34,374 nucleotides of DNA from an uncultured Opitutia bacterium (lineage in GTDB: Bacteria > Verrucomicrobiota > Verrucomicrobiia > Opitutales > CAJWYM01), in NCBI GenBank assembly GCA_913049555.1, contig CAJWYM010000039.1:1-34374 (forward strand), written 5' to 3'. This document shows, piece after piece, positions 3,982 through 17,088 of this stretch. Both the position numbers and the translations under genes were made by a program. The notes beneath the pieces were generated by a model. That model made no database searches. It saw only the letters and a program-made list of their open reading frames with translations, and had not been told where the DNA came from. How positions within the stretch are numbered: position 1 is the first letter of the stretch; each line of letters starts with the position of its first letter.

Positions 3982-5565
3982 CTAGGAGAGATAAATTAAT
4001 TTATATTCTAAAGCATCTTTTAATGCTTCCCAACTAGCCTCAATTACGTTGTCGCTTGCACCAACGGTTCCCCACACATTGTCTCCGTCCGTGGATTCAA
4101 TATGAACCCGAATAATTGATTTGGAGCCCAATCCGCCCTCAACAATCCGAACAGTGAAATCAATCAATTTCACATCTTTAATTTGTGGATAATCAGAGAT
4201 TAAAGCTTTCCTTAGAGCCATATCTAGAGCTCCTACGGGTCCGGATGACTCTGAAACTGTATGATGAAGTTTTTGATCGATTGTAAGTTTGACCGTTGCT
4301 TCAGAGATATTGGAATCGGTCTTTTCGTCTCTTTCGGTGATGACTCGGTAGCTGATGCAATCAAAGAAGTTTTTTTGAGTGCTTTTATTTAAAAATCTGG
4401 AAAGTAACATTTTAAAGGAAGCATCCGCTGCCTCATATTCATAGCCTTTAAATTCTAGTTTTTTCAGTTCTTCTAGAAAAATTTTCAACTCCTCAGATCT
4501 TGCGTCTAAGTCGATCCCAATTTCTTTAGCCTTCATCATGATACTGCTTCTCCCAGACATATCTGAAACCAATACTCGGGTTCGATTTCCGACCAAAGCA
4601 GGGTCTATATGCTCATAACTTCTGGCGACTTTATTAGCAGCATCTGCATGTACTCCTCCTTTGTGAGCAAATGAAGAGGCTCCCACAAATGGAGCTCGAA
4701 TATCGGGTCGTTGATTCACCATGTCATCCAAAAATAAAGATAAATCCCGCATATTTTTGAGGCTGTTTTGGCAATTTAATTCATGACCCATCTTTAGGTG
4801 TAAGCTTGGAACAATGGAAGTTAAATTTGCATTTCCATTTCTTTCGCCATAGCCATTGATCGTTCCTTGAACTAGTTTGGCCCCAACGTCGATACCAGAT
4901 AGAGACAAAGCAGTGCCTAAACCACAATCATTGTGACAATGCATGCCAATGTCTGTTTTTGGAAAGAGAGTGACAATCGTTGCAACGATTTCTCGAAGTT
5001 CTTGGATCATCATTCCACCATTTGTATCACAAAGACTCAGGTTTGAGGCTCCTCCTCGAACGGCGGCTTCTAAGGTTTTGATGGCATAATTATTGTTGTC
5101 TTTATAACCATCAAAGAAATGTTCCGCATCATAAATGACTTTTTTTCCATTCTTTACTAGGTGACGGACAGAATCTTCAATCATTTCTAGATTGGTTTCA
5201 GGCTCTATCCTTAAAACTTCTTGGACATGCAAAAGCCAAGTTTTTCCAAAAATCGTGATGACCTCTGTCTCAGCATCCAAAAGCATTTGAATTTGTGGGT
5301 CTTCTTCAACAGAAATATTTGCTCTTCTTGTAGATCCAAAGGCAGTGACTTTTGCATGATTGAGCTTGAGATTTTTTACTTCCTTGAAAAAAGCCATATC
5401 CCGCGGATTGGAACCGGGCCACCCACCTTCAATAAAGTCTATACCAAATTGATCCAGTTTTTCAGTGATTCGTAGTTTTGCTGAAAGTGGAAAAGAGATT
5501 CCTTCTCCTTGACTGCCATCACGCAAAGTGGTGTCGTAAATTAAAACTTTTTTAGGGGAACTCAT
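3982..5565 (-). CDS. cimA: (R)-citramalate synthase
   Basis: Condenses pyruvate with acetyl-CoA to (R)-citramalate, giving 2-oxobutanoate for isoleucine without threonine deaminase. The HMGL-like TIM barrel covers about residues 5-275. YDTTLRDGSQ (10-19) holds the catalytic Arg15 and metal ligand Asp16. GMHCHND (207-213) gives the metal ligands His209 and His211, and NGYGERNGNAN (237-247) the third ligand region. A C-terminal LeuA-type allosteric domain (about 395-525, ending near WGTVGASDNVIEASW) usually binds isoleucine. The long insert and FGSTRRANISVEEDP (76-90) place it in the CimA branch rather than 2-isopropylmalate synthase, and its 527 residues fit. It is the last gene of the serA-plsY-hom-lysC-thrC-cimA run, 12 bases after thrC. 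No clear intrinsic terminator follows. Confidence 0.92.
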   Translation of the reverse strand: MSSPKKVLIYDTTLRDGSQGEGISFPLSAKLRITEKLDQFGIDFIEGGWPGSNPRDMAFFKEVKNLKLNHAKVTAFGSTRRANISVEEDPQIQMLLDAETEVITIFGKTWLLHVQEVLRIEPETNLEMIEDSVRHLVKNGKKVIYDAEHFFDGYKDNNNYAIKTLEAAVRGGASNLSLCDTNGGMMIQELREIVATIVTLFPKTDIGMHCHNDCGLGTALSLSGIDVGAKLVQGTINGYGERNGNANLTSIVPSLHLKMGHELNCQNSLKNMRDLSLFLDDMVNQRPDIRAPFVGASSFAHKGGVHADAANKVARSYEHIDPALVGNRTRVLVSDMSGRSSIMMKAKEIGIDLDARSEELKIFLEELKKLEFKGYEYEAADASFKMLLSRFLNKSTQKNFFDCISYRVITERDEKTDSNISEATVKLTIDQKLHHTVSESSGPVGALDMALRKALISDYPQIKDVKLIDFTVRIVEGGLGSKSIIRVHIESTDGDNVWGTVGASDNVIEASWEALKDALEYKLIYLS

Positions 5566-5577
5566 CGAGAAATAGAA

Positions 5578-6939
5578 TTAAATTTTTTGTCTAATATAAG
5601 ATTGAATGGATTCTGTTGTGGCCGTGATGGAAGTTTTAACAATTTTTTTGTTTTTAAGGGCCTCCAAAGAATCTGATTTTGCATGAACACCAATTGCTTT
5701 TTCAATTGTATCTGGAAATTTAGCTGGATGGGCAGTGCTTAAAATAATGTTCACTCCCTTAGTTCCTGTTCTTTTAAAACCACATGCGGTGTGGGGGTCG
5801 ACAATATACTTGAATTGACTGTAAACACCATCAATGATGGATGGAATTTCATAATCTGAAGTTCGACTCGCTGAAAAATTGGATACAATCTGATTATCAG
5901 GGATGTCGAAGCGCCCTTCGCTTTTAATGGATTGCATCGCTTCTGTTACTTTTTCTGGGTCTTCATCCAAGATGTAATAAAGGAGTCGTTCAAAATTGGA
6001 GGCAACTTGAATATCCATGGAGGGCGCTAAACTAGGCTTTACAGTGCCTGATTCATAAATACCCTCCTCAAAAAAGCGATACAGGATATCATTTTGATTA
6101 GTGGCAACTTGAAAATCTCCAATGTTCACTCCCATTCTTCGAAGCAACCAACCAGCGAATACATTTCCAAAATTACCGGTTGGAACTACAAAAGTCAGAT
6201 TTCTTCTTTGTGCTTCTTTGAGCTGTAGATAAGCATATAAATAATAGACGCTTTGAGCTAAGATCCTAGCTAGATTGATACTGTTTACAGCAGACAATCC
6301 AACTTCTTTTTTAAAGTCTAAATCTTCAAAAGTTTCTTTGAGAGCCTTCTGAGCATCATCAAAACTTCCTTCAATTGCGAGTGGGTAAACATTCGAAGCC
6401 CCTGTGCAAGTCATCTGCCTTTCCTGCAAAGGAGAGACCCGACCATTTGGATAAAGAATAAATATATTCACTCCTTCTTTACCAAGTAAACCATGGATTG
6501 CCGCTGCCCCTGTATCTCCTGAAGTGGCTCCTAAGACTGTGATGGGTTTGCCGGTCTTTTCTATTTGCTCTTGGTACAAATTTCCTAGCAACTGCAATGC
6601 AAAATCTTTAAAGGCAAGGGTAGGCCCATGAAATAATTCTAAAACAAACAAACGATTTCGCAATGGAACCAATGGGGCAATGTCTTTGTGTTCAAATTTT
6701 GTGTAGCTTCGAGCACATATGGCATCGAGCCGATCTTTTTCTATGTCTGTTGCAAATAGAGAGAAAAATTCAGAAGTCAGCTCAGGGTAAGTGAGGCCTT
6801 CCCAAGACTTGAGTGTAGAAGTTGAAATTTGGGGTAAAATTTCTGGCAAATAGAGGCCGCCATCGGGTGCAAGACCATTGGCAACCGCTTGACAAAAACC
6901 AACCTTGGGTGATTTTCCTCTTGTGCTAACGTATTTCAT
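5578..6939 (-). CDS. thrC: Threonine synthase
   Basis: PLP enzyme that converts O-phospho-L-homoserine to L-threonine in the cytoplasm. The N-terminal MKYVSTRG and the long form (453 residues) mark the E. coli/yeast-type subfamily. The PLP lysine is Lys111 in HGPTLAFKDFALQ (104-116). The phosphate-holding stretch GATSGDTGAAA, the VNSINLARILAQ segment and FVVPTGNFGNVFAGW are all intact. It lies 23 bases downstream of lysC and 12 bases upstream of cimA, in the same direction. The preceding enzyme, homoserine kinase (thrB), is not in the operon or elsewhere in the window, so phosphohomoserine must come from a gene elsewhere. Confidence 0.95.
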   Translation of the reverse strand: MKYVSTRGKSPKVGFCQAVANGLAPDGGLYLPEILPQISTSTLKSWEGLTYPELTSEFFSLFATDIEKDRLDAICARSYTKFEHKDIAPLVPLRNRLFVLELFHGPTLAFKDFALQLLGNLYQEQIEKTGKPITVLGATSGDTGAAAIHGLLGKEGVNIFILYPNGRVSPLQERQMTCTGASNVYPLAIEGSFDDAQKALKETFEDLDFKKEVGLSAVNSINLARILAQSVYYLYAYLQLKEAQRRNLTFVVPTGNFGNVFAGWLLRRMGVNIGDFQVATNQNDILYRFFEEGIYESGTVKPSLAPSMDIQVASNFERLLYYILDEDPEKVTEAMQSIKSEGRFDIPDNQIVSNFSASRTSDYEIPSIIDGVYSQFKYIVDPHTACGFKRTGTKGVNIILSTAHPAKFPDTIEKAIGVHAKSDSLEALKNKKIVKTSITATTESIQSYIRQKI

Positions 6940-6962: not shown

Positions 6963-8174
6963 TTATTTTTCCAAATTAAAAACATCGTGTAAAATTTGAG
7001 TCGCTTTATTCGCTTGCTCTGGTTTGATTGCAACCGTAATTTTAATCTCAGATGTGCTGATCATCTGTATATTAATCTCTTCAGCTGCTAAAGCATCGAA
7101 GCAAGTAGCAGCAACTCCTGAGTGGGATTTCATCCCAATTCCGACAATCGAGATTTTAGCAATTTTATCCAGGACAGAAACATTTCCTCCGCCATTTTCG
7201 CTCAAAATCTCATTCACTTTTTGCTCGGCTCTATGAGCATCATCAGCAGGGACAGTAAAGGTTAAATTTGCTAATCCTTTCCGGCCAATATTTTGAATGA
7301 TCATATCGACTACCACTTCAATTTCAGCTAGAGATTTAAAAACTGCAGCAGCCGTTCCCGGTTTATCAGGGATATCACTGACTACAATTTTGCATTGATT
7401 TTTATCCACCGCTAAACCACTTACGAGGACACCTTCCATAGATGCGACTTCTTGTTTCACAATTGTTCCTGGATTATTGTTAAAGCTAGATCTGACTTCA
7501 AAAGGGATATTGAATTTACTGGCAAATTCAACAGCACGGGACTGCATGACCTTGGTTCCACTACTAGCCAATTCAAGCATTTCCTCGTAACTGATTTCTT
7601 TGATTTTCTTAGCGTTTTTGACTACTCGAGGATCTGTTGTATAAACCCCATCAACATCTGTATAGATTTGGCAGATGTCTGCTTGGATCGCGCCTGCAAT
7701 TGCTATTGCAGATAAGTCAGACCCCCCGCGTCCTAGAGTGGTGATATGACCGTCAGCCGATCCTTGAAAACCAGCAACAATGACTGCTTTGCCTTGGTTT
7801 AGTTGTGCTTTGATGTCTCCGCCACTGATATCTAAAATGCGAGCCCTTGTGTGAGCCAAACTGGTTGTTATTCCGGCTTGAGCTCCCGTTCTTGAAACCG
7901 CAGCAACTCCGATGGCATGGAGTGCCATGGTCGTCAATGCGATTGTCTCTTGTTCTCCCACTGATAGAAGAACATCCATTTCCCGATCATCAGGGTGAGG
8001 ATTCAGAGCCTTTGCTCGTTCGATCAATTGATTCGTAATCCCGGATCTTGCAGAGACAACGACAACGACTTGATTGCCATCCTCAATTGTCTGCTTCACT
8101 CGTTCTGCAACTACTTTGATTCTTTCAACATTAGCAACGGATGTGCCTCCGTATTTTTGAACTATAAGTGCCAA
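6963..8174 (-). CDS. lysC: Aspartate kinase, monofunctional
   Basis: Phosphorylates L-aspartate, the entry step to lysine, threonine and methionine. The N-terminal amino-acid-kinase domain (about 1-235) starts with the ATP-binding motif KYGGTS (7-12) and contains GFQG, TTLGRGGSDLSA and the YTDVDGVYTTDPR substrate/nucleotide loop. Two tandem ACT domains follow (about 265-335 and 345-403), the usual site of feedback control by lysine and/or threonine. Its 403 residues match the monofunctional beta-type enzyme; it is not fused to homoserine dehydrogenase, which is the next gene upstream (hom, 23 bases away). Being in one operon with hom and thrC suggests control linked to threonine supply. ATG start with a modest CAGGA-type ribosome binding site. 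Confidence 0.95.
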   Translation of the reverse strand: MALIVQKYGGTSVANVERIKVVAERVKQTIEDGNQVVVVVSARSGITNQLIERAKALNPHPDDREMDVLLSVGEQETIALTTMALHAIGVAAVSRTGAQAGITTSLAHTRARILDISGGDIKAQLNQGKAVIVAGFQGSADGHITTLGRGGSDLSAIAIAGAIQADICQIYTDVDGVYTTDPRVVKNAKKIKEISYEEMLELASSGTKVMQSRAVEFASKFNIPFEVRSSFNNNPGTIVKQEVASMEGVLVSGLAVDKNQCKIVVSDIPDKPGTAAAVFKSLAEIEVVVDMIIQNIGRKGLANLTFTVPADDAHRAEQKVNEILSENGGGNVSVLDKIAKISIVGIGMKSHSGVAATCFDALAAEEINIQMISTSEIKITVAIKPEQANKATQILHDVFNLEK

Positions 8175-8197: not shown

Positions 8198-9529
8198 TTA
8201 TTTGACTCGATTGAAGATACGGATCATCACCGGTTCTTCTACAACGAATTCTAAAGATGCAAGTTTTTTAACAGTATCTAGGGCATTTTGTTCCGTTGCT
8301 TTGTGCGTTGTCAACATGATAGAAGCGGTTCCGTTTTTATCATTACTTTCTTTTTGGTTGAGTGTTGCAATACTGACTTCGTTGTTCGCCAGAACTTCTG
8401 CGATTTTGGCTAAAACACCGGGTGCATCGGTTGCTTTAATTCTAAAGTAGAATTTTCCTATTATCTTGTCTAAAGAAGAAATTTTTAAATCCGCACTTTC
8501 TTCACAAGGAGTGAAGATTTCAGTGAGTTTTGGTCCCCCTTTTAAGGCTTGAACCGCATCGCAAATATCACTGATAACAGAACTAGAGGTAGGGTTTTGT
8601 CCAGCACCACGACCAATCATAACCGTCTCACCTGCGATATCTCCACTCACACTAATTCCGTTAAAAACCTCATCTACATGAGCAATCTTCTCTTTTTGAG
8701 AGATCAAGCATGGGAATACACCAGCCGTAAGTTGATTGTTGCGAAAGTCTCGAGTGATTTCTGCAATGAGTTTGATTTTAAAACCCATATTACTGGCTAT
8801 TTCAAAGTCCAACTTATTTAGCTTTCGGATCCCCTCTATCCTCATGTCAGACAATTGAATCCATTGACCGTGTGCCAAAAAAGCAAGGATTACAGTCTTG
8901 TGGGCAGCGTCAATTCCATCCAAGTCTAAGGACTCATCATATTCAACATATCCAAGCTTGCGGGCGTCTTCCAAAATCGGCTGAAAATCCAATCCTTCTC
9001 TCTCCATACGAGTGAGGATGTAGTTAGAGGTTCCATTTAAAATTCCAAATATTTGTTTGAAACGATTGGCAACTAGACCCTCATGCAAAGTTTTTATAAT
9101 GGGAATTCCCCCTGCAACACTGGCTTCATAAAAATAATCAGCATCATTTTGGCGAGCAATCTCAAAGAGCTCAGAGCCGTGATCGCAAACGAGGGCTTTG
9201 TTGGCAGTTACAACTATTTTCCCATTTTGAAAGGCCTTTTTAGTCAAGCTCAGTGCTGGTTCAATTCCGCCCATCAATTCACAAATTATTTGGATACTGG
9301 CATCATCGACAATTTCCTCAGGTTTGGTCGTTAGAAGTTCCTTTGGGATTCCAGCTTGGACGGCTTTGTCAATATCACGGATCGCGATCCTAGTGATTTG
9401 AAGCGAAGAACCCACTCTTTTTTCTAATCCCTCACGGTAAGCATCTAAGTTTTTCCAAACCCCTTGACCTACAACTCCGCAGCCGATAAGACCAATATTA
9501 ACAGTAGGGAATTCTTTGTTATTATTCAT
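8198..9529 (-). CDS. hom: Homoserine dehydrogenase with ACT domain
   Basis: Reduces aspartate semialdehyde to homoserine with NAD(P)H. The Rossmann motif GLIGCGVVGQG is at 13-23 and VTANKAL is at 107-113. The catalytic domain shows ILNGTSNYIL (163-172) and the GIDAAHK segment (205-211). A C-terminal ACT domain (about 361-438, starting FRIKATDAPGVLAKIAE) implies feedback by threonine, as in Gram-positive and many other bacterial enzymes. Length 443 is normal. The start ATG overlaps the plsY stop as ATGA, a four-base overlap typical of translational coupling. lysC follows after 23 bases. No fusion or frameshift is seen. Confidence 0.95.
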   Translation of the reverse strand: MNNNKEFPTVNIGLIGCGVVGQGVWKNLDAYREGLEKRVGSSLQITRIAIRDIDKAVQAGIPKELLTTKPEEIVDDASIQIICELMGGIEPALSLTKKAFQNGKIVVTANKALVCDHGSELFEIARQNDADYFYEASVAGGIPIIKTLHEGLVANRFKQIFGILNGTSNYILTRMEREGLDFQPILEDARKLGYVEYDESLDLDGIDAAHKTVILAFLAHGQWIQLSDMRIEGIRKLNKLDFEIASNMGFKIKLIAEITRDFRNNQLTAGVFPCLISQKEKIAHVDEVFNGISVSGDIAGETVMIGRGAGQNPTSSSVISDICDAVQALKGGPKLTEIFTPCEESADLKISSLDKIIGKFYFRIKATDAPGVLAKIAEVLANNEVSIATLNQKESNDKNGTASIMLTTHKATEQNALDTVKKLASLEFVVEEPVMIRIFNRVK

Positions 9530-10179
9530 TTTTTGATAGAATTTTTCTTCTCTGCTTTGTCGAAGGAACCCTCAGAACCTTGAATTATTTTGAGAATGTT
9601 GCTTTTGTGCCTGACTACTACAAGTATAGCAATGAGCGTTACGAAAATGTATTCAGGGGGTTGAATTTCATGTAGTTGAATGGCATCAAAAAAGAGTGCC
9701 CAAATGGGCAAACTGATGGCCAGTGCAATGGATGCTAAAGAAACAATTTTTTTGGAAAAGTAAGTCGCCAACCAAACGGTAATCCCTGCGAGCATTACTA
9801 TGGGCATAATGCCAAAAATTCCTCCAACGGTTGTGGCAACCCCTTTGCCTCCTCGAAATTTTATAAAGATCGAAAATGAATGACCAATTACAGCGGCTCC
9901 CAATCCTAGCACAGACAATAGAGCTTGATGACTGGGATCTGTTCCAATGAAGTCCAAACGAACCCAAGTTGCTGCAATAAACCCTTTTAAAAAGTCTAGA
10001 AAAAAAACAAGATTACCGGGGCCCTTCCCGCAAACTCGAGTCACATTGGTTGCCCCAGGATTTCCACTTCCTTTTTTAAAAATGTCTACCCCTAATCTCT
10101 TTGCAACAATCACAGCAAAAGGAAGAGCTCCTAGCAAGTATCCAGCTAGGATTGCGGCAATAACATCTATGAGGTCCAT
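9526..10179 (-). CDS. plsY: Acyl-phosphate:glycerol-3-phosphate acyltransferase
   Basis: Inner-membrane enzyme that moves an acyl group from acyl-phosphate to glycerol-3-phosphate, making lysophosphatidic acid, the first phospholipid intermediate. All three family motifs are present: GSGNPGATN (37-45), GHSFSIFIKFRGGKGVAT (99-116) and RHKSNI (190-195). Motif 2 normally has Pro after GHxF and here has Ser (GHSFS), a minor deviation. Several hydrophobic helices (about 4-24, 54-72, 88-106, 121-140, 146-166, 178-190) fit the multi-pass topology; 217 residues is usual. It sits between serA (18 bases upstream) and hom (ATGA overlap). The tail from 200 on (GSEGSFDKAEKKNSIKK) is charged. A lipid gene coupled inside an amino-acid operon is unexpected. 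Confidence 0.95.
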   Translation of the reverse strand: MDLIDVIAAILAGYLLGALPFAVIVAKRLGVDIFKKGSGNPGATNVTRVCGKGPGNLVFFLDFLKGFIAATWVRLDFIGTDPSHQALLSVLGLGAAVIGHSFSIFIKFRGGKGVATTVGGIFGIMPIVMLAGITVWLATYFSKKIVSLASIALAISLPIWALFFDAIQLHEIQPPEYIFVTLIAILVVVRHKSNILKIIQGSEGSFDKAEKKNSIKK

Positions 10180-10197: not shown

Positions 10198-11787
10198 TTA
10201 GAGCCTGACCATGGTTACATTTTTAATGTTATCCAATGCATGAATTTTATCCATAGATTCTGCGCAGGGTTGTGAATCCAGCTCATAAACTGAAAGAGCA
10301 GTCCCTCCAGATTCTTCAGACCTGCATAAAGTCATGTTACCAATATTGACCCCATGTTCTCCAAGGATTTGACCCACACTGCCTATGATTCCAGGAGTGT
10401 CTATGTTTTCTAATAAAATGAGCTGCCCATTAGGATTTACTTCTATATCACGTCCTTTGATGTTAACGACCTTCGGCAAGCCTTTCCCAAGGATTGTTCC
10501 AGACAAAGTCAGGCTATTGCCCGTATTGAGAACGGCCTCTATTTGTATGAGGTCTGTATAATCACAGTCGATGCTAGATTTAGTAACCTCTACTTCGATC
10601 CCTAAGTGCTTCATTTTGAGAGGAGCATTGATATCATTGGTATTTTGGCCGCTGATATTCAAAAGGTACCCTTTTTGAATTGCTCTTGTTAGGGGCAGGC
10701 TGTCTAAGTTGGTGATTTTACCCCAATAGGTAATCTTAAGACTCACAATTTGATTTGGAGACAACTGTTGGATAAACGTCCCTAGCTTTTCGCCTAAGGT
10801 CAAGTAAGGCTGTAATTCTTGTAGAGTTTTGGCATCCACAGAGGGTGCATTGATGGCATTAATAACCTTACCTGTTGAAATGACATCAAATACAGCTTCG
10901 GCGATTTCAATGCCAACGCTTTCTTGAGCTTCCTTTGTGGAGGCACCTAAGTGAGGGGTAAGGACTATATTGTCAAGGGAGCGGAGTTCGTGATCCTCAG
11001 ACAAAGGTTCTGATTCGTACACATCTAAACCTGCAGCAGCTACTTTTCCTGATTTGACTGCGTTTATGAGAGCGGTTTCTTTGATGATTCCTCCACGAGC
11101 ACAATTAAATAGACGAACCCCATCTTTCATTAAATCAAAGGCATTCTCATCTATCATATACTTCGTAGTATCTGTCAATGGCATGTGAACCGTTATGTAA
11201 TCTGCGTGTTTGAAAGCATCTTCAAGTTCTACAACTTTAATATCCAAAGCTTTTGCTCTGCTAGATGTCAAAAACGGGTCGTAAGCAATTACAGACATGT
11301 CAAAAGCTTTCGCTCTTTTGGCAACTTCTGCTCCAATTCTTCCAAGCCCAATGACTGCTAAAGTTTTATTGCGTAATTCACTTCCAGAAAAATCTTTTCT
11401 GGCCCATTTTCCAGCTTTCATGCTCGCTGAAGCTTGAGGAATTGGACGCGCCCCGCAAAGCATGTGTGTGAAGGTCAATTCAGCAGTGGCAATGGTATTG
11501 CCAGTAGGGGTATTCATAACGATTACTCCGTTTTCAGTTGCCGATTCAATATCGATATTGTCAACGCCAACTCCAGCTCTGCCTACAACCTTCAATTCTT
11601 TTGCAACGGCAAATACTTCTGGTGTTATCTTGGTTTCACTTCTAACAATGATGGCCGAGACATCCACCGCTAATTTTTGGATCTCTTCCGGAGAAGAACC
11701 ATAGGCTTCAATGACTTCAAGCCCATCTTGATTGCGTAAATACTCTACACCTGTTGGTGAAATTTTGTCTGCTACTAGAATTTTCAT
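10198..11787 (-). CDS. serA: D-3-phosphoglycerate dehydrogenase
   Basis: Oxidises 3-phosphoglycerate to 3-phosphohydroxypyruvate, the first step of serine synthesis. I take ATG at 11787 (MKILVADKIS), which gives 529 residues, the usual long-form length. An upstream in-frame GTG at 11820 would add 11 residues but lies inside the predicted promoter. Substrate and NAD domains: VVGRAGVGVDN (67-77), GLGRIG (147-152), the catalytic Arg231 in NCARGG, Glu260 in ESEPL and His279 in TPHLGAS. An intervening ASB-type domain (about 315-450) and a C-terminal ACT domain (about 455-529, starting LILLENIDTPGIIGSVG) follow; serine usually inhibits through the ACT domain. It is the first gene of the six-gene operon. 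TAGGG lies 6 bases before the ATG. Confidence 0.95.
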   Translation of the reverse strand: MKILVADKISPTGVEYLRNQDGLEVIEAYGSSPEEIQKLAVDVSAIIVRSETKITPEVFAVAKELKVVGRAGVGVDNIDIESATENGVIVMNTPTGNTIATAELTFTHMLCGARPIPQASASMKAGKWARKDFSGSELRNKTLAVIGLGRIGAEVAKRAKAFDMSVIAYDPFLTSSRAKALDIKVVELEDAFKHADYITVHMPLTDTTKYMIDENAFDLMKDGVRLFNCARGGIIKETALINAVKSGKVAAAGLDVYESEPLSEDHELRSLDNIVLTPHLGASTKEAQESVGIEIAEAVFDVISTGKVINAINAPSVDAKTLQELQPYLTLGEKLGTFIQQLSPNQIVSLKITYWGKITNLDSLPLTRAIQKGYLLNISGQNTNDINAPLKMKHLGIEVEVTKSSIDCDYTDLIQIEAVLNTGNSLTLSGTILGKGLPKVVNIKGRDIEVNPNGQLILLENIDTPGIIGSVGQILGEHGVNIGNMTLCRSEESGGTALSVYELDSQPCAESMDKIHALDNIKNVTMVRL

Positions 11788-11799
11788 ATAAAACCCTAG

Positions 11800-11828
11800 A
11801 CTATAAAAACCTGTATTCACAATTGCAA
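11800..11828 (-). promoter_or_regulatory. Predicted promoter of the serA operon
   Basis: On the minus strand TTGCAA (11823-11828) is followed after exactly 17 bases by TATAGT (11800-11805). They match the sigma-70 boxes at 4 of 6 and 5 of 6 positions. The -10 box ends only 12 bases before the chosen serA ATG, so the mRNA leader would be very short (under about 10 bases). The -35 box is the centre of a 20-bp palindrome, which suggests a repressor could block this promoter. Prediction by eye only. Confidence 0.45.
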
Positions 11829-11835
11829 TTGTGAA
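11816..11835. promoter_or_regulatory. 20-bp perfect palindrome, candidate operator of the serA operon
   Basis: TTCACAATTGCAATTGTGAA reads identically on both strands for all 20 bases; the next flanking pair (A/G) breaks the symmetry. It covers the predicted -35 box, 29 bases upstream of serA. Half-sites TTCACAATTG fit a dimeric helix-turn-helix regulator. The TGTGA and TCACA halves are in the reverse order to a CRP site (TGTGA-N6-TCACA), so CRP is not a natural candidate. No regulator gene is adjacent. It has no loop or T-tract and is not a terminator. Confidence 0.55.
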
Positions 11836-12061
11836 GTTGCCAGAATCTAAAAGGATTTACAATAAATGGAGTGATGCGGATAACATTCTTCCAAAGGAGT
11901 TTTTTGAAACAAGTAGAACCCAATATAATTCTGGTTAAGATTTTTTATAATTTAAATAAAAATCAGATAAAATTTGAGTGTCATTATTGTCAAACTTGTA
12001 TTAAGGGTCCGTCCATTCTTATTTATAAATTTGGTTTCCAACTAATGAGGTGGATAGGGGT

Positions 12062-13135
12062 TTAGTTTTCATGGAATTGTGGAAGGGATCGTTTGTTTTC
12101 CGGAATTTTTAATTGATCTTCCAGACGATGCACCGTGTCGATTGTTTTTTCATGAAGATCTCGCCAATTTGTGAGGGGGATTCGTTTTGCTTTAGACCGT
12201 TGGAGATTGGTATTGAAGGCAGAACCGTAAAAGGTGGTCTCTTGTCCGGATTCACATCCAAAACTAGGTCGTTCACTGTTTGATGCGGTCAGTATCTTGG
12301 TGTTGGGTAATTTGGAAAGGTCCGAATAGATACCTTTAAAATCTATAAATCCACCTGAGTAACAACCCTGAATTACAATGAATTTGGGAACTTCTGGGTT
12401 TGATTTAAATAAACTGGCTAAATAATTAGAGTTTAAAAATAGGTAATTAGGATCGTTACCTTCTTTGATTGCGTGTAATTTCATTTTAGTATTACTGGAT
12501 CCATTTGGATCTTGGCCAAAGAAAATGAGGTGTTGACCCAAATAAGGGAATTCGTCTTTTAAATAATTACCGAGAGAATTTATTTTGGAGTCGGACTTGA
12601 ATTTAGGTTTCAAACCGTGGGAACTGATGTATAAGTATAGATAGTCGACCTTATTGGAGAGAGCTTTCCTAATATCTGCTCCTAAGTTGGGGATATCTGC
12701 ACTCCGAAATTGGATCAATTCGGAGGCCAAATTATCAAACTGAACCGCGTCATTGTGGTAGGCAGAAATTGTTGGATAAGAGTAGTAACATTGGATTTCA
12801 TCCTCTGTGTAACCTTTATCTAACCAAATCTTTTTTTGGTCTACAATTTCTTGTAAAAAGTTGGCGGAGTCATTTCCTGCCGCTATGAGAAAAATCTTAC
12901 TTTTGTAAGAAATGGGTTTTCGATTAAAAACAGGAAAATTAGCATCTACAGATGATAGATCACCAGACAATTCTTGATGGTTGAGGGGAGCCATTTGCCA
13001 ACGACCTGCTTTAAAGTAAAAAGAGTTTGGATTCCTAGAGCTACAAGCGCTCAGCAAAAGGAGTAATGAAAAAACCAAAAGAGGCTGATATTTTTTAACA
13101 GTCGAGAGAGGAAGCCAAGACTTTAACTTATCCAT
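12062..13135 (-). CDS. Peptidase C13 (legumain)-family lipoprotein
   Basis: Putative cysteine endopeptidase of the caspase/legumain fold, anchored to a membrane. A lipoprotein signal peptide ends in the lipobox LLSAC, with the lipidated Cys31 counted from the start used here. The first strand ([12 protein letters not shown]), the catalytic His173 in YLYISSHG and Cys258 in [12 protein letters not shown] are followed by [15 protein letters not shown] and TTFYGSAF, which closely match the TA-x-ADRxSFGC and TYFGxA signature of bacterial C13 peptidases. The start is uncertain: ATG at 13135 sits inside the end of hisF as ATGGATAA (8-base overlap), while an in-frame ATG at 13153 would add six residues. 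Both imply translational coupling to hisF. Substrate unknown. No intrinsic terminator is evident downstream. Confidence 0.78.
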
Positions 13136-13895
13136 CAAGTCGGACGGGTACATTCTTTGAAGCTAGATATTCTTTTGCCTCTCGGATTGTGTAAGTTCCA
13201 AAGTGAAATATAGATGCAGCTAGGACAGCGTTCGCATTCCCTATTAAAACTGCTTCAGAAAGGTGTTCAAGAGTTCCTGCTCCTCCAGATGCAATCAATG
13301 GAACCGGAACGTTGGAGCTGACTGTCTGGTTGAGAAGATTGTCATAACCATTTTTGGTTCCGTCACAATCCATACTGGTCAATAAAATTTCTCCAGCACC
13401 TCTGTGAGCAACTTCTTTTGCCCAATCAATCGCATCTAAATCTGTAGGATTTCTACCACCATGGGTATAAACTCTCCAAGAATTAGTTTTGGGGTCTCGC
13501 TTGGCATCGATGGCAACTACAATGCATTGGTTCCCGAAATGGGAGGAGGCCTCAGAAATTAAATCTGGATTTTGGATGGCGGCAGTATTCAAACTAACTT
13601 TGTCTGCGCCTGCATTCAGCATAGATCTGATGTTTTCAAGATTTCTAAGTCCACCCCCGACAGTCAATGGCATGAAACATTGAGAGGCAGTTTTTTCAAC
13701 TACATCCAACATGATGTTTCGGTCATCAGAGGAAGCAGTGATATCTAGGAAAACCAATTCATCTGCACCTTGATCTTGATAAGCCTTGGCTGAATCAACA
13801 GGATCTCCTGCATCTATAAGTTCTTTAAACTGAACACCCTTAACAACTCTACCGGCATTGACGTCAAGGCAGGGTATGATACGGCATGATAGCAT
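13128..13895 (-). CDS. hisF: Imidazole glycerol phosphate synthase, cyclase subunit
   Basis: TIM-barrel subunit that joins ammonia (from HisH) with PRFAR to give imidazole glycerol phosphate and AICAR. The two catalytic aspartates are in place: Asp11 in RIIPCLDV and Asp130 in [18 protein letters not shown] (77-85), [13 protein letters not shown] and [12 protein letters not shown] are the usual phosphate- and substrate-binding loops. Its 255 residues are normal. Its partner hisH lies at 27221-27841 on the opposite strand, grouped with hisC and hisB. hisF itself sits 8 bases after an unknown 585-residue gene and overlaps the C13 peptidase gene. ATG start with no strong ribosome binding site, so expression probably depends on the upstream gene. 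Confidence 0.96.
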
Positions 13896-15782: not shown

Positions 15783-16904
15783 TTAGGCAAAGAGTTGCAA
15801 AAAGTCTTCATTCGTTTTGGTCTTTAGCATTCTTTCATGCAAAGCCTCCGAAGAATCGACCACTTTCATTGGAGCTAAACCTCTTCTCATTAATCCGGAT
15901 GCTTTCAATTCAATTTCATCCAGTAAAAGCTCCTCTCTGCGAGTGCCTGAAGCGGAAAGATTGATAGCGGGCCAGTGTCTTAATTCAGCCACTTGCCTGT
16001 CGAGAACGATTTCCATATTTCCAGTTCCTTTAAACTCTTGAAAAATAAGCTCGTCCATCTTACTACCAGTCTCAATCAATGCAGAAGCAATGGTTGTTAG
16101 ACTTCCAGCCTCTTCCGTATTTCTAGCTGCTGAAAATATTTGTCGGGGTCTCTCCAATGCTCGTATATCTAAACCTCCAGTCATTGTTCTGCCTCCACCG
16201 CCCTTAGCTGAGTTGTGCGCACGGGCAAGTCGAGTGATAGAATCAATCAACAAAATAACATCTTTTCCTATCTCAACAAGTCTTCTGGCTCTTTCGATTG
16301 CGAAATCTGCTACCTTGATATGATTTTCAAGAGATTCATCATTGGAGGATGCAAAAACTTCAGCAGGAACTGACCTTCTAAAGTCAGTAACTTCTTCGGG
16401 TCTTTCATCTACAAGTAAAACCATCAAATGGCATTCCGGGTTGTTTTCTAAAGCGCCAAAAGCAATATCTTGTAAGAGGGTAGTTTTGCCGGTTCTTGGT
16501 GGGGCGACAATCAGTCCGCGCTGACCCTTACCAATCGGACAAAAAAGATCGATAATTCTGTTGCTTAGCCTATGATCTTTTGTTTCAAGGTTTATTCTCT
16601 CCTCTGGGGGTATGGTTGTCAGTTGTTCATAGCGAATTTTCTTTTTGCGTTGATCTACGGGCAAACCATCTATGTTTTCTACAAATTTAACTCTAGGGTT
16701 CGGGTGACGTTTGTCCTTGAAGGCAAACCCCCGTACGAAACTCCCTCTTTTAATCTTGAAACGTTTTATCAGTTCACCGGAAATAAAAGGGTCCGACGGA
16801 CGGGCTCTTCCATTGCGGTCCAAGCTAACCAATTGACCAGACTTACTGCCTGCAGGCTCGAAAATTCCTTCTACCGGAATGGACTCATTGTTTGATTCAC
16901 TCAT
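15783..16904 (-). CDS. rho: Transcription termination factor Rho
   Basis: Hexameric RNA-dependent ATPase that ends transcription. I use ATG at 16904 (373 residues); a TTG six bases further upstream is also in frame. There is no clear ribosome binding site. The protein lacks the N-terminal Rho helical domain (E. coli Rho has 419 residues) and begins with a short acidic tail and the cold-shock-like RNA-binding domain (about 10-85, with GELIKRFKIKRGSFVRGFAF). The ATPase domain has Walker A APPRTGKT (134-141), VDERPEEVTDFRR (166-178), Walker B VILLIDS (216-222), the Q-loop region RLARAHNSAKGGGGRTMTGG and the R-loop EFKGTGNME. The Q-loop segment differs from the common RLARAYNTVxPxSGKxLTGG form. 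It is a single gene, divergent from the rhodanese-like gene. Confidence 0.95.
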   Translation of the reverse strand: MSESNNESIPVEGIFEPAGSKSGQLVSLDRNGRARPSDPFISGELIKRFKIKRGSFVRGFAFKDKRHPNPRVKFVENIDGLPVDQRKKKIRYEQLTTIPPEERINLETKDHRLSNRIIDLFCPIGKGQRGLIVAPPRTGKTTLLQDIAFGALENNPECHLMVLLVDERPEEVTDFRRSVPAEVFASSNDESLENHIKVADFAIERARRLVEIGKDVILLIDSITRLARAHNSAKGGGGRTMTGGLDIRALERPRQIFSAARNTEEAGSLTTIASALIETGSKMDELIFQEFKGTGNMEIVLDRQVAELRHWPAINLSASGTRREELLLDEIELKASGLMRRGLAPMKVVDSSEALHERMLKTKTNEDFLQLFA

Positions 16905-17088
16905 ATACAATTATCAACACAAATGCGGATGATATATTTGGGAGGTTGATTAAGATCTGAAATAAAATTAGATCTGGTTTGCTGGTATCGAATCCAGAAA
17001 AATAAAATTATTGCTTCCGTAATATTGCTTGTCAAACTTTTATATACAATGGTTCTTATAATAATAATCATGACAGCGGAAAAATTTT

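Follow-up and report, generated by a model that had tools for sequence, protein, structure and literature searches.

Sigma-70 promoters have the consensus hexamers TTGACA at -35 and TATAAT at -10, and palindromic repressor operators placed over the -35 box are a general kind of bacterial control site. The element described here combines features of both. It lies upstream of serA, the first gene of the serA-plsY-hom-lysC-thrC-cimA operon, in a 34,374-nucleotide (nt) stretch of DNA from an uncultured Opitutia bacterium (Verrucomicrobiota, order Opitutales). This stretch, called the window, is one complete contig (C39) of a 3.1-Mb assembly. The element resembles a sigma-70-type promoter in its hexamer pair, its 17-base-pair (bp) spacing and its good -10 box (TATAGT), and differs from it by TTGC instead of TTGA, conserved for serA across the order, and by a very short leader. 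It shares with the palindromic operators a perfect dyad symmetry centred on the -35 box, but it has no known protein, no second site was found for it and it is not conserved in relatives. The site of CRP, TGTGA-N6-TCACA, is built of the same two five-base words; they stand here in the opposite order and at another spacing (TCACA-N8-TGTGA), which bears out the exclusion of a standard CRP site in an earlier note on this DNA. The features on which the argument depends are:

11816 to 11835, no strand: perfect 20-bp palindrome TTCACAATTGCAATTGTGAA, read from the sequence
11823 to 11828, minus strand: TTGCAA, -35-like, centre of the palindrome, with the TTGC core conserved before serA in Opitutales
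11800 to 11805, minus strand: TATAGT, proposed -10, 17 bases from TTGCAA
11792 to 11794, minus strand: putative transcription start, some 7 nt past the -10, which would give a leader of about 5 nt; deduced from the sequence
10198 to 11787, minus strand: serA, D-3-phosphoglycerate dehydrogenase, 529 aa, first gene of the operon (TIGR01327)

The site is probably an ordinary sigma-70-like core promoter of the operon with a conserved -35 region, whose palindromic arms are private to this genome and represent either a chance elaboration or a private repressor site. The 20 bases at 11816-11835 are self-complementary throughout. On the minus strand 17 bases separate TTGCAA (11828-11823) from TATAGT (11805-11800), which stands just before serA, whose ATG is at 11787-11785, 41 nt downstream of the start of TTGC. 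Both readings agree with the earlier note, whose range 11800-11835 spans the -10 box and the palindrome. The hexamer pair TTGCAA-N17-TATAGT has 9 of 12 consensus matches at a spacing that falls within 16-18 bp and is conserved in relatives. The proposal that the palindrome covers the -35 box of the operon thus gains comparative support from the TTGC and its spacing to a T-rich -10-like box in Opitutales. Under this proposal RNA polymerase carrying the housekeeping sigma factor would bind TTGCAA and TATAGT, transcription would start near 11793, about 5 nt before the serA ATG, and translation would begin without a Shine-Dalgarno (SD) sequence; the start point, the sigma factor and any regulator are putative.

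Conservation was assessed on 132 serA loci, namely 30 that include the window's own, 80 retained from 520 confirmed and 22 more, which gave 128 distinct upstream regions. These relatives are best matches and not a random sample, some genomes occur in both collections, and merging was confined to upstream regions that are identical. The closest relatives of this serA belong to Opitutia, Verrucomicrobiota, at about 60-64% identity; comparison was at the level of the order Opitutales, with all relatives drawn from families other than that of the window genome. TTGC is found 30-75 nt before the serA start in 116 of the 128 distinct regions, some of these occurrences being probably incidental (for example L016 and L027). 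In the background of genes with free upstream DNA, whose starts were set by a simple open reading frame rule, it is found in 23-27% of cases (18/67 in this genome, G000, and, in two relatives, 23/92 in G031 and 16/69 in G034). Within one 21-nt interval TTGC is present in 23 of the first 30 serA loci, while the best of all 4-mers reached 13 of 30 rho loci, which were treated in the same way as a control for plain shared descent. Alignment on TTGC used 113 sites and the arm-pairing test described below 109, after removal of loci with no TTGC at 30-60 nt, with short flanks or in duplicate. The aligned sites have T at +23 (74%), +24 (84%) and +28 (58%), where a -10 box spaced by 17 bp would place them. 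At these positions the window reads T, A and T, and its TATAGT stands in the same register as the T-rich box of the relatives. A longer core, TTGCAATT, is present in several of them. As judged from these alignments, the order as a whole has kept the TTGC core and its spacing to the -10 for serA. The conserved part of the palindrome is therefore its centre, and the arms are new. A GTCAT-like word is also seen about 20-50 nt before TTGC in a subset of Opitutaceae serA upstream regions (such as L013, L040, L066 and L131) and may be another promoter or operator part.

Several points weigh against assignment as a plain sigma-70 promoter. The promoter scan alone gave 2 matches where 1.7 are expected by chance, and the pattern TTG-N20-TATAGT was found once, with 21 of 100 shuffles containing it as well. 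Among the -35-like words in the background of G000 and G031, TTGA somewhat outnumbers TTGC. The second -10 position in the relatives is mostly T (A in 6%), which is poor for a standard sigma-70 -10, and for this reason their serA promoters may need an activator or another sigma factor. Finally, the chance of a perfect palindrome centred on the -35 box at this one place is low, which argues for a function beyond that of a plain promoter. On the supporting side, several relatives have CATnnT at 16-bp spacing (by eye), an ordinary pattern, and TTTACA-N17-CATAGT is found by eye upstream of rnpB in this genome; the -10 profiles of background genes, like the promoters of tRNA genes and of rnpB, were too small in number to yield a consensus for the order. 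A sigma-54 promoter, which TTGC might suggest, was rejected by eye against the consensus because GG is missing at the right distance. T at the second -10 position can be seen, for instance, in the serA upstream regions L087, L106 and L026.

The weight of the palindrome itself depends on the frame in which it is counted. With 194,324 bases of this genome as its training set, a second-order Markov model predicts 11 perfect palindromes of 20 bp or longer per 4 Mb, which amounts to about 0.09 for the window and about 8.5 for the whole 3.1 Mb of the genome. Given the conserved TTGCAA core, the probability that all seven other pairs match is near 1-2 in 10,000 (arithmetic from composition and pairing rate), and where a few thousand promoters are considered together, such a palindrome would arise at one of them with odds of roughly a few in ten. 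It is unusual at this place, yet not extraordinary, several being expected by chance in a genome of this size. The earlier statement that chance palindromes of this length are rare at a promoter therefore stands for a single promoter or the window and does not extend to the genome as a whole.

The explanation that survives best beside that of a plain promoter, and may add to it, is that the palindrome is a lineage-specific operator: a dimeric repressor, perhaps with an amino-acid co-repressor, would occupy all 20 bp, cover the -35 box and shut off the operon. This is possible but tentative. It is favoured by the perfect symmetry centred on the -35 box where so few such palindromes are expected in the window, and by the pairing of the arms, since all seven outer pairs match in the window, whereas the other distinct sites that have the core, 108 in number, show a mean of 1.85, the chance level, and a maximum of 5. 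On the same core the perfect half-length reaches 10 in the window and does not exceed 4 in those sites. The same comparison counts against an operator because the arms occur in none of the relatives examined; at the sampling available, with relatives from other families, they appear private to this genome. With up to 2 mismatches the half-site pattern TTCACAA-N6-TTGTGAA matches the genome at 39 places and its reversed control at 19, which also speaks for an operator. However, the exact 20-mer has no second copy in the genome, and with up to 3 mismatches it has two other places, one in a gene and one 154 nt before an esterase-like gene, and no near copy was seen at another amino-acid gene. Of the 39 half-site places given by the looser searches, 15 were examined, that of serA among them; 11 fall within genes and 4 are intergenic, and no amino-acid gene lies next to the intergenic ones other than that of serA. 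By eye, the three intergenic places other than serA are next to the esterase-like gene, between a divergent pair of phosphatase-like and oxidoreductase-like genes (flanking proteins that look like an alkaline phosphatase and an FAD oxidoreductase), and beside a DNA-ligase-like gene with an unknown neighbour. Nor do the window proteins that were identified include a regulator encoded next to the operon. Two further candidates were discarded: a second copy of CAATTGCAATTG as a further site, which is inside a gene, and a regulon defined by the exact palindrome or its half-sites, which yielded no coherent gene set. The amino-acid-responsive repressor proposed in the earlier note, with variants of its site expected before other amino-acid genes, is thus not supported; the palindrome is not conserved upstream of serA at the order level in the other families compared, the very outcome that had been named as speaking against it. 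A lineage-specific, single-target putative operator is possible, and no support was found for it beyond the symmetry itself. The arms would be either a chance elaboration of the self-palindromic TTGCAA core, which is slightly favoured, or a private repressor site over the -35.

A different explanation takes the conserved TTGC-N19-TT as the site of a serA-specific activator or unusual sigma factor shared by the order in place of a plain -35/-10 pair. It is unlikely, in spite of a TTGC conservation far above that of the background and the rho control and of a -10-like box with T where A is expected in 84% of the relatives. No regulon emerged: in six genomes CTTTTCCTTGC was found at 25 places against 34 for its control, and TTCCTTGC-N19-TTCG at 10 places against 4, two of the 10 being serA. 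Moreover, the window has a good TATAGT, and the CATnnT boxes of several relatives are of ordinary type. These two Opitutaceae forms of the element were set aside as regulon motifs, having given no coherent gene set. A compound account, in which a serA-specific element (TTGC-N19-TT, mostly without the usual -10 A) read by a novel factor controls serine and aspartate-family synthesis in Opitutales and, in addition, became a private 20-bp repressor operator here, is improbable. It is least credible of all that the palindrome works at the RNA level, as a hairpin that terminates or attenuates transcripts from upstream genes: it can form an 8-bp fold of -6.6 kcal/mol with five U starting a few nt later, but lacks the G+C-rich stem directly before a U run of an intrinsic terminator, no terminator-like site is found in 11500-12100, the fold with its context is no more stable than shuffles (z -0.84; 282-nt region, z -0.53), the window has no Rfam match at gathering score that would indicate a known leader RNA, and the relatives lack the arms. 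The terminator scan, the Rfam search and the folding against shuffles led to the rejection of both a terminator and a leader RNA in the window.

The sigma-70-like promoter reading also has a consequence for translation. The sole SD-like word upstream of serA, AGGG at 11797-11794, lies upstream of the putative start; with transcription beginning near 11793, it would be outside the message, whose leader would be about 5 nt. SD-like words before gene starts are not enriched over a control interval (3 vs 3 of 67 in G000, 7 vs 10 of 92 in G031, 9 vs 9 of 69 in G034, and 8 vs 18 of 132 at the serA loci), and an SD-free start fits the order. Two Verrucomicrobia are classed as SD-scarce (PMC10783764) and about 10% of starts in Akkermansia muciniphila are given as leaderless (PMC4782308). 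One serA locus compared here (L115) is from an organism named in that literature on leaderless or SD-free initiation in Verrucomicrobiota. The difference is that these works, in the sections available, concern neither serA nor Opitutales promoters, and that the start proposed here is deduced from sequence.

The remaining genes of the operon, named like serA by their NCBIfam matches, are:

9526 to 10179, minus strand: plsY (TIGR00023)
8198 to 9529, minus strand: hom, homoserine dehydrogenase (NF004976)
6963 to 8174, minus strand: lysC, aspartate kinase (NF005155)
5578 to 6939, minus strand: thrC, threonine synthase (TIGR00260)
3982 to 5565, minus strand: cimA, citramalate synthase (TIGR00977)
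12062 to 13153, minus strand (outside the operon): lipoprotein-like gene between hisF and serA, with a weak caspase-type match below the family cut-off

From their coordinates the intergenic gaps from serA to cimA are 18, -4, 23, 23 and 12 nt; these gaps of 12-23 nt or 4-nt overlap, with the NCBIfam identities, uphold the claim that the promoter heads the whole run. Among the 126 loci that extend far enough, window included, 120 have plsY directly after serA, and hom is found within 3.5 kb after serA in 53 of 72 loci. Upstream of serA, on the same strand, come the weak caspase-like gene and then hisF. Two rho-like genes are present in this genome, at 15783-16910 of the window (minus strand) and at G000:C3:23556-24650, and two are found in most relatives also.

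In f16, a related family of Opitutales, the TTGC element is mostly missing; a TTGAC-type promoter takes its place, together with a hairpin immediately upstream of serA:

L014:3088-3131 (minus strand), L042:405-448, L090:2953-2996 and 9 others: covarying leader hairpin AATCG[A/G]GTTGGAAAA[C/T]AGTCCC[G/A]CGATT, just before serA

Its loop sequence is found once per genome in all 11 genomes of genus g16 searched, and is found neither in G144, of the same family, nor in the window's genome. Among 12 distinct sequences there are three outer pairs in which both partners change (13 cells; 0 of 500 shuffles as high), 97.7% of cells in the alignment pair, and an A/G to G/A exchange occurs at opposed positions. 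Five loci searched gave no Rfam family at gathering score, and a permissive search of two f16 loci gave two weak matches below gathering scores, neither at the hairpin. A literature search for a serA leader, RNA motif or riboswitch found nothing. The f16 hairpin is a candidate regulatory RNA.

The site upstream of serA in the window is thus ordinary in kind: a promoter element conserved for serA, on which lies a lineage-specific palindrome whose meaning is uncertain and whose interest is local. A literature search found nothing on serA promoters or transcription starts in Opitutales, and little of gene control in Verrucomicrobiota seems to have been charted. An element that a whole order has kept upstream of a single gene offers a clear target for testing the promoter type used by Opitutales, as well as translation start without Shine-Dalgarno sequences.
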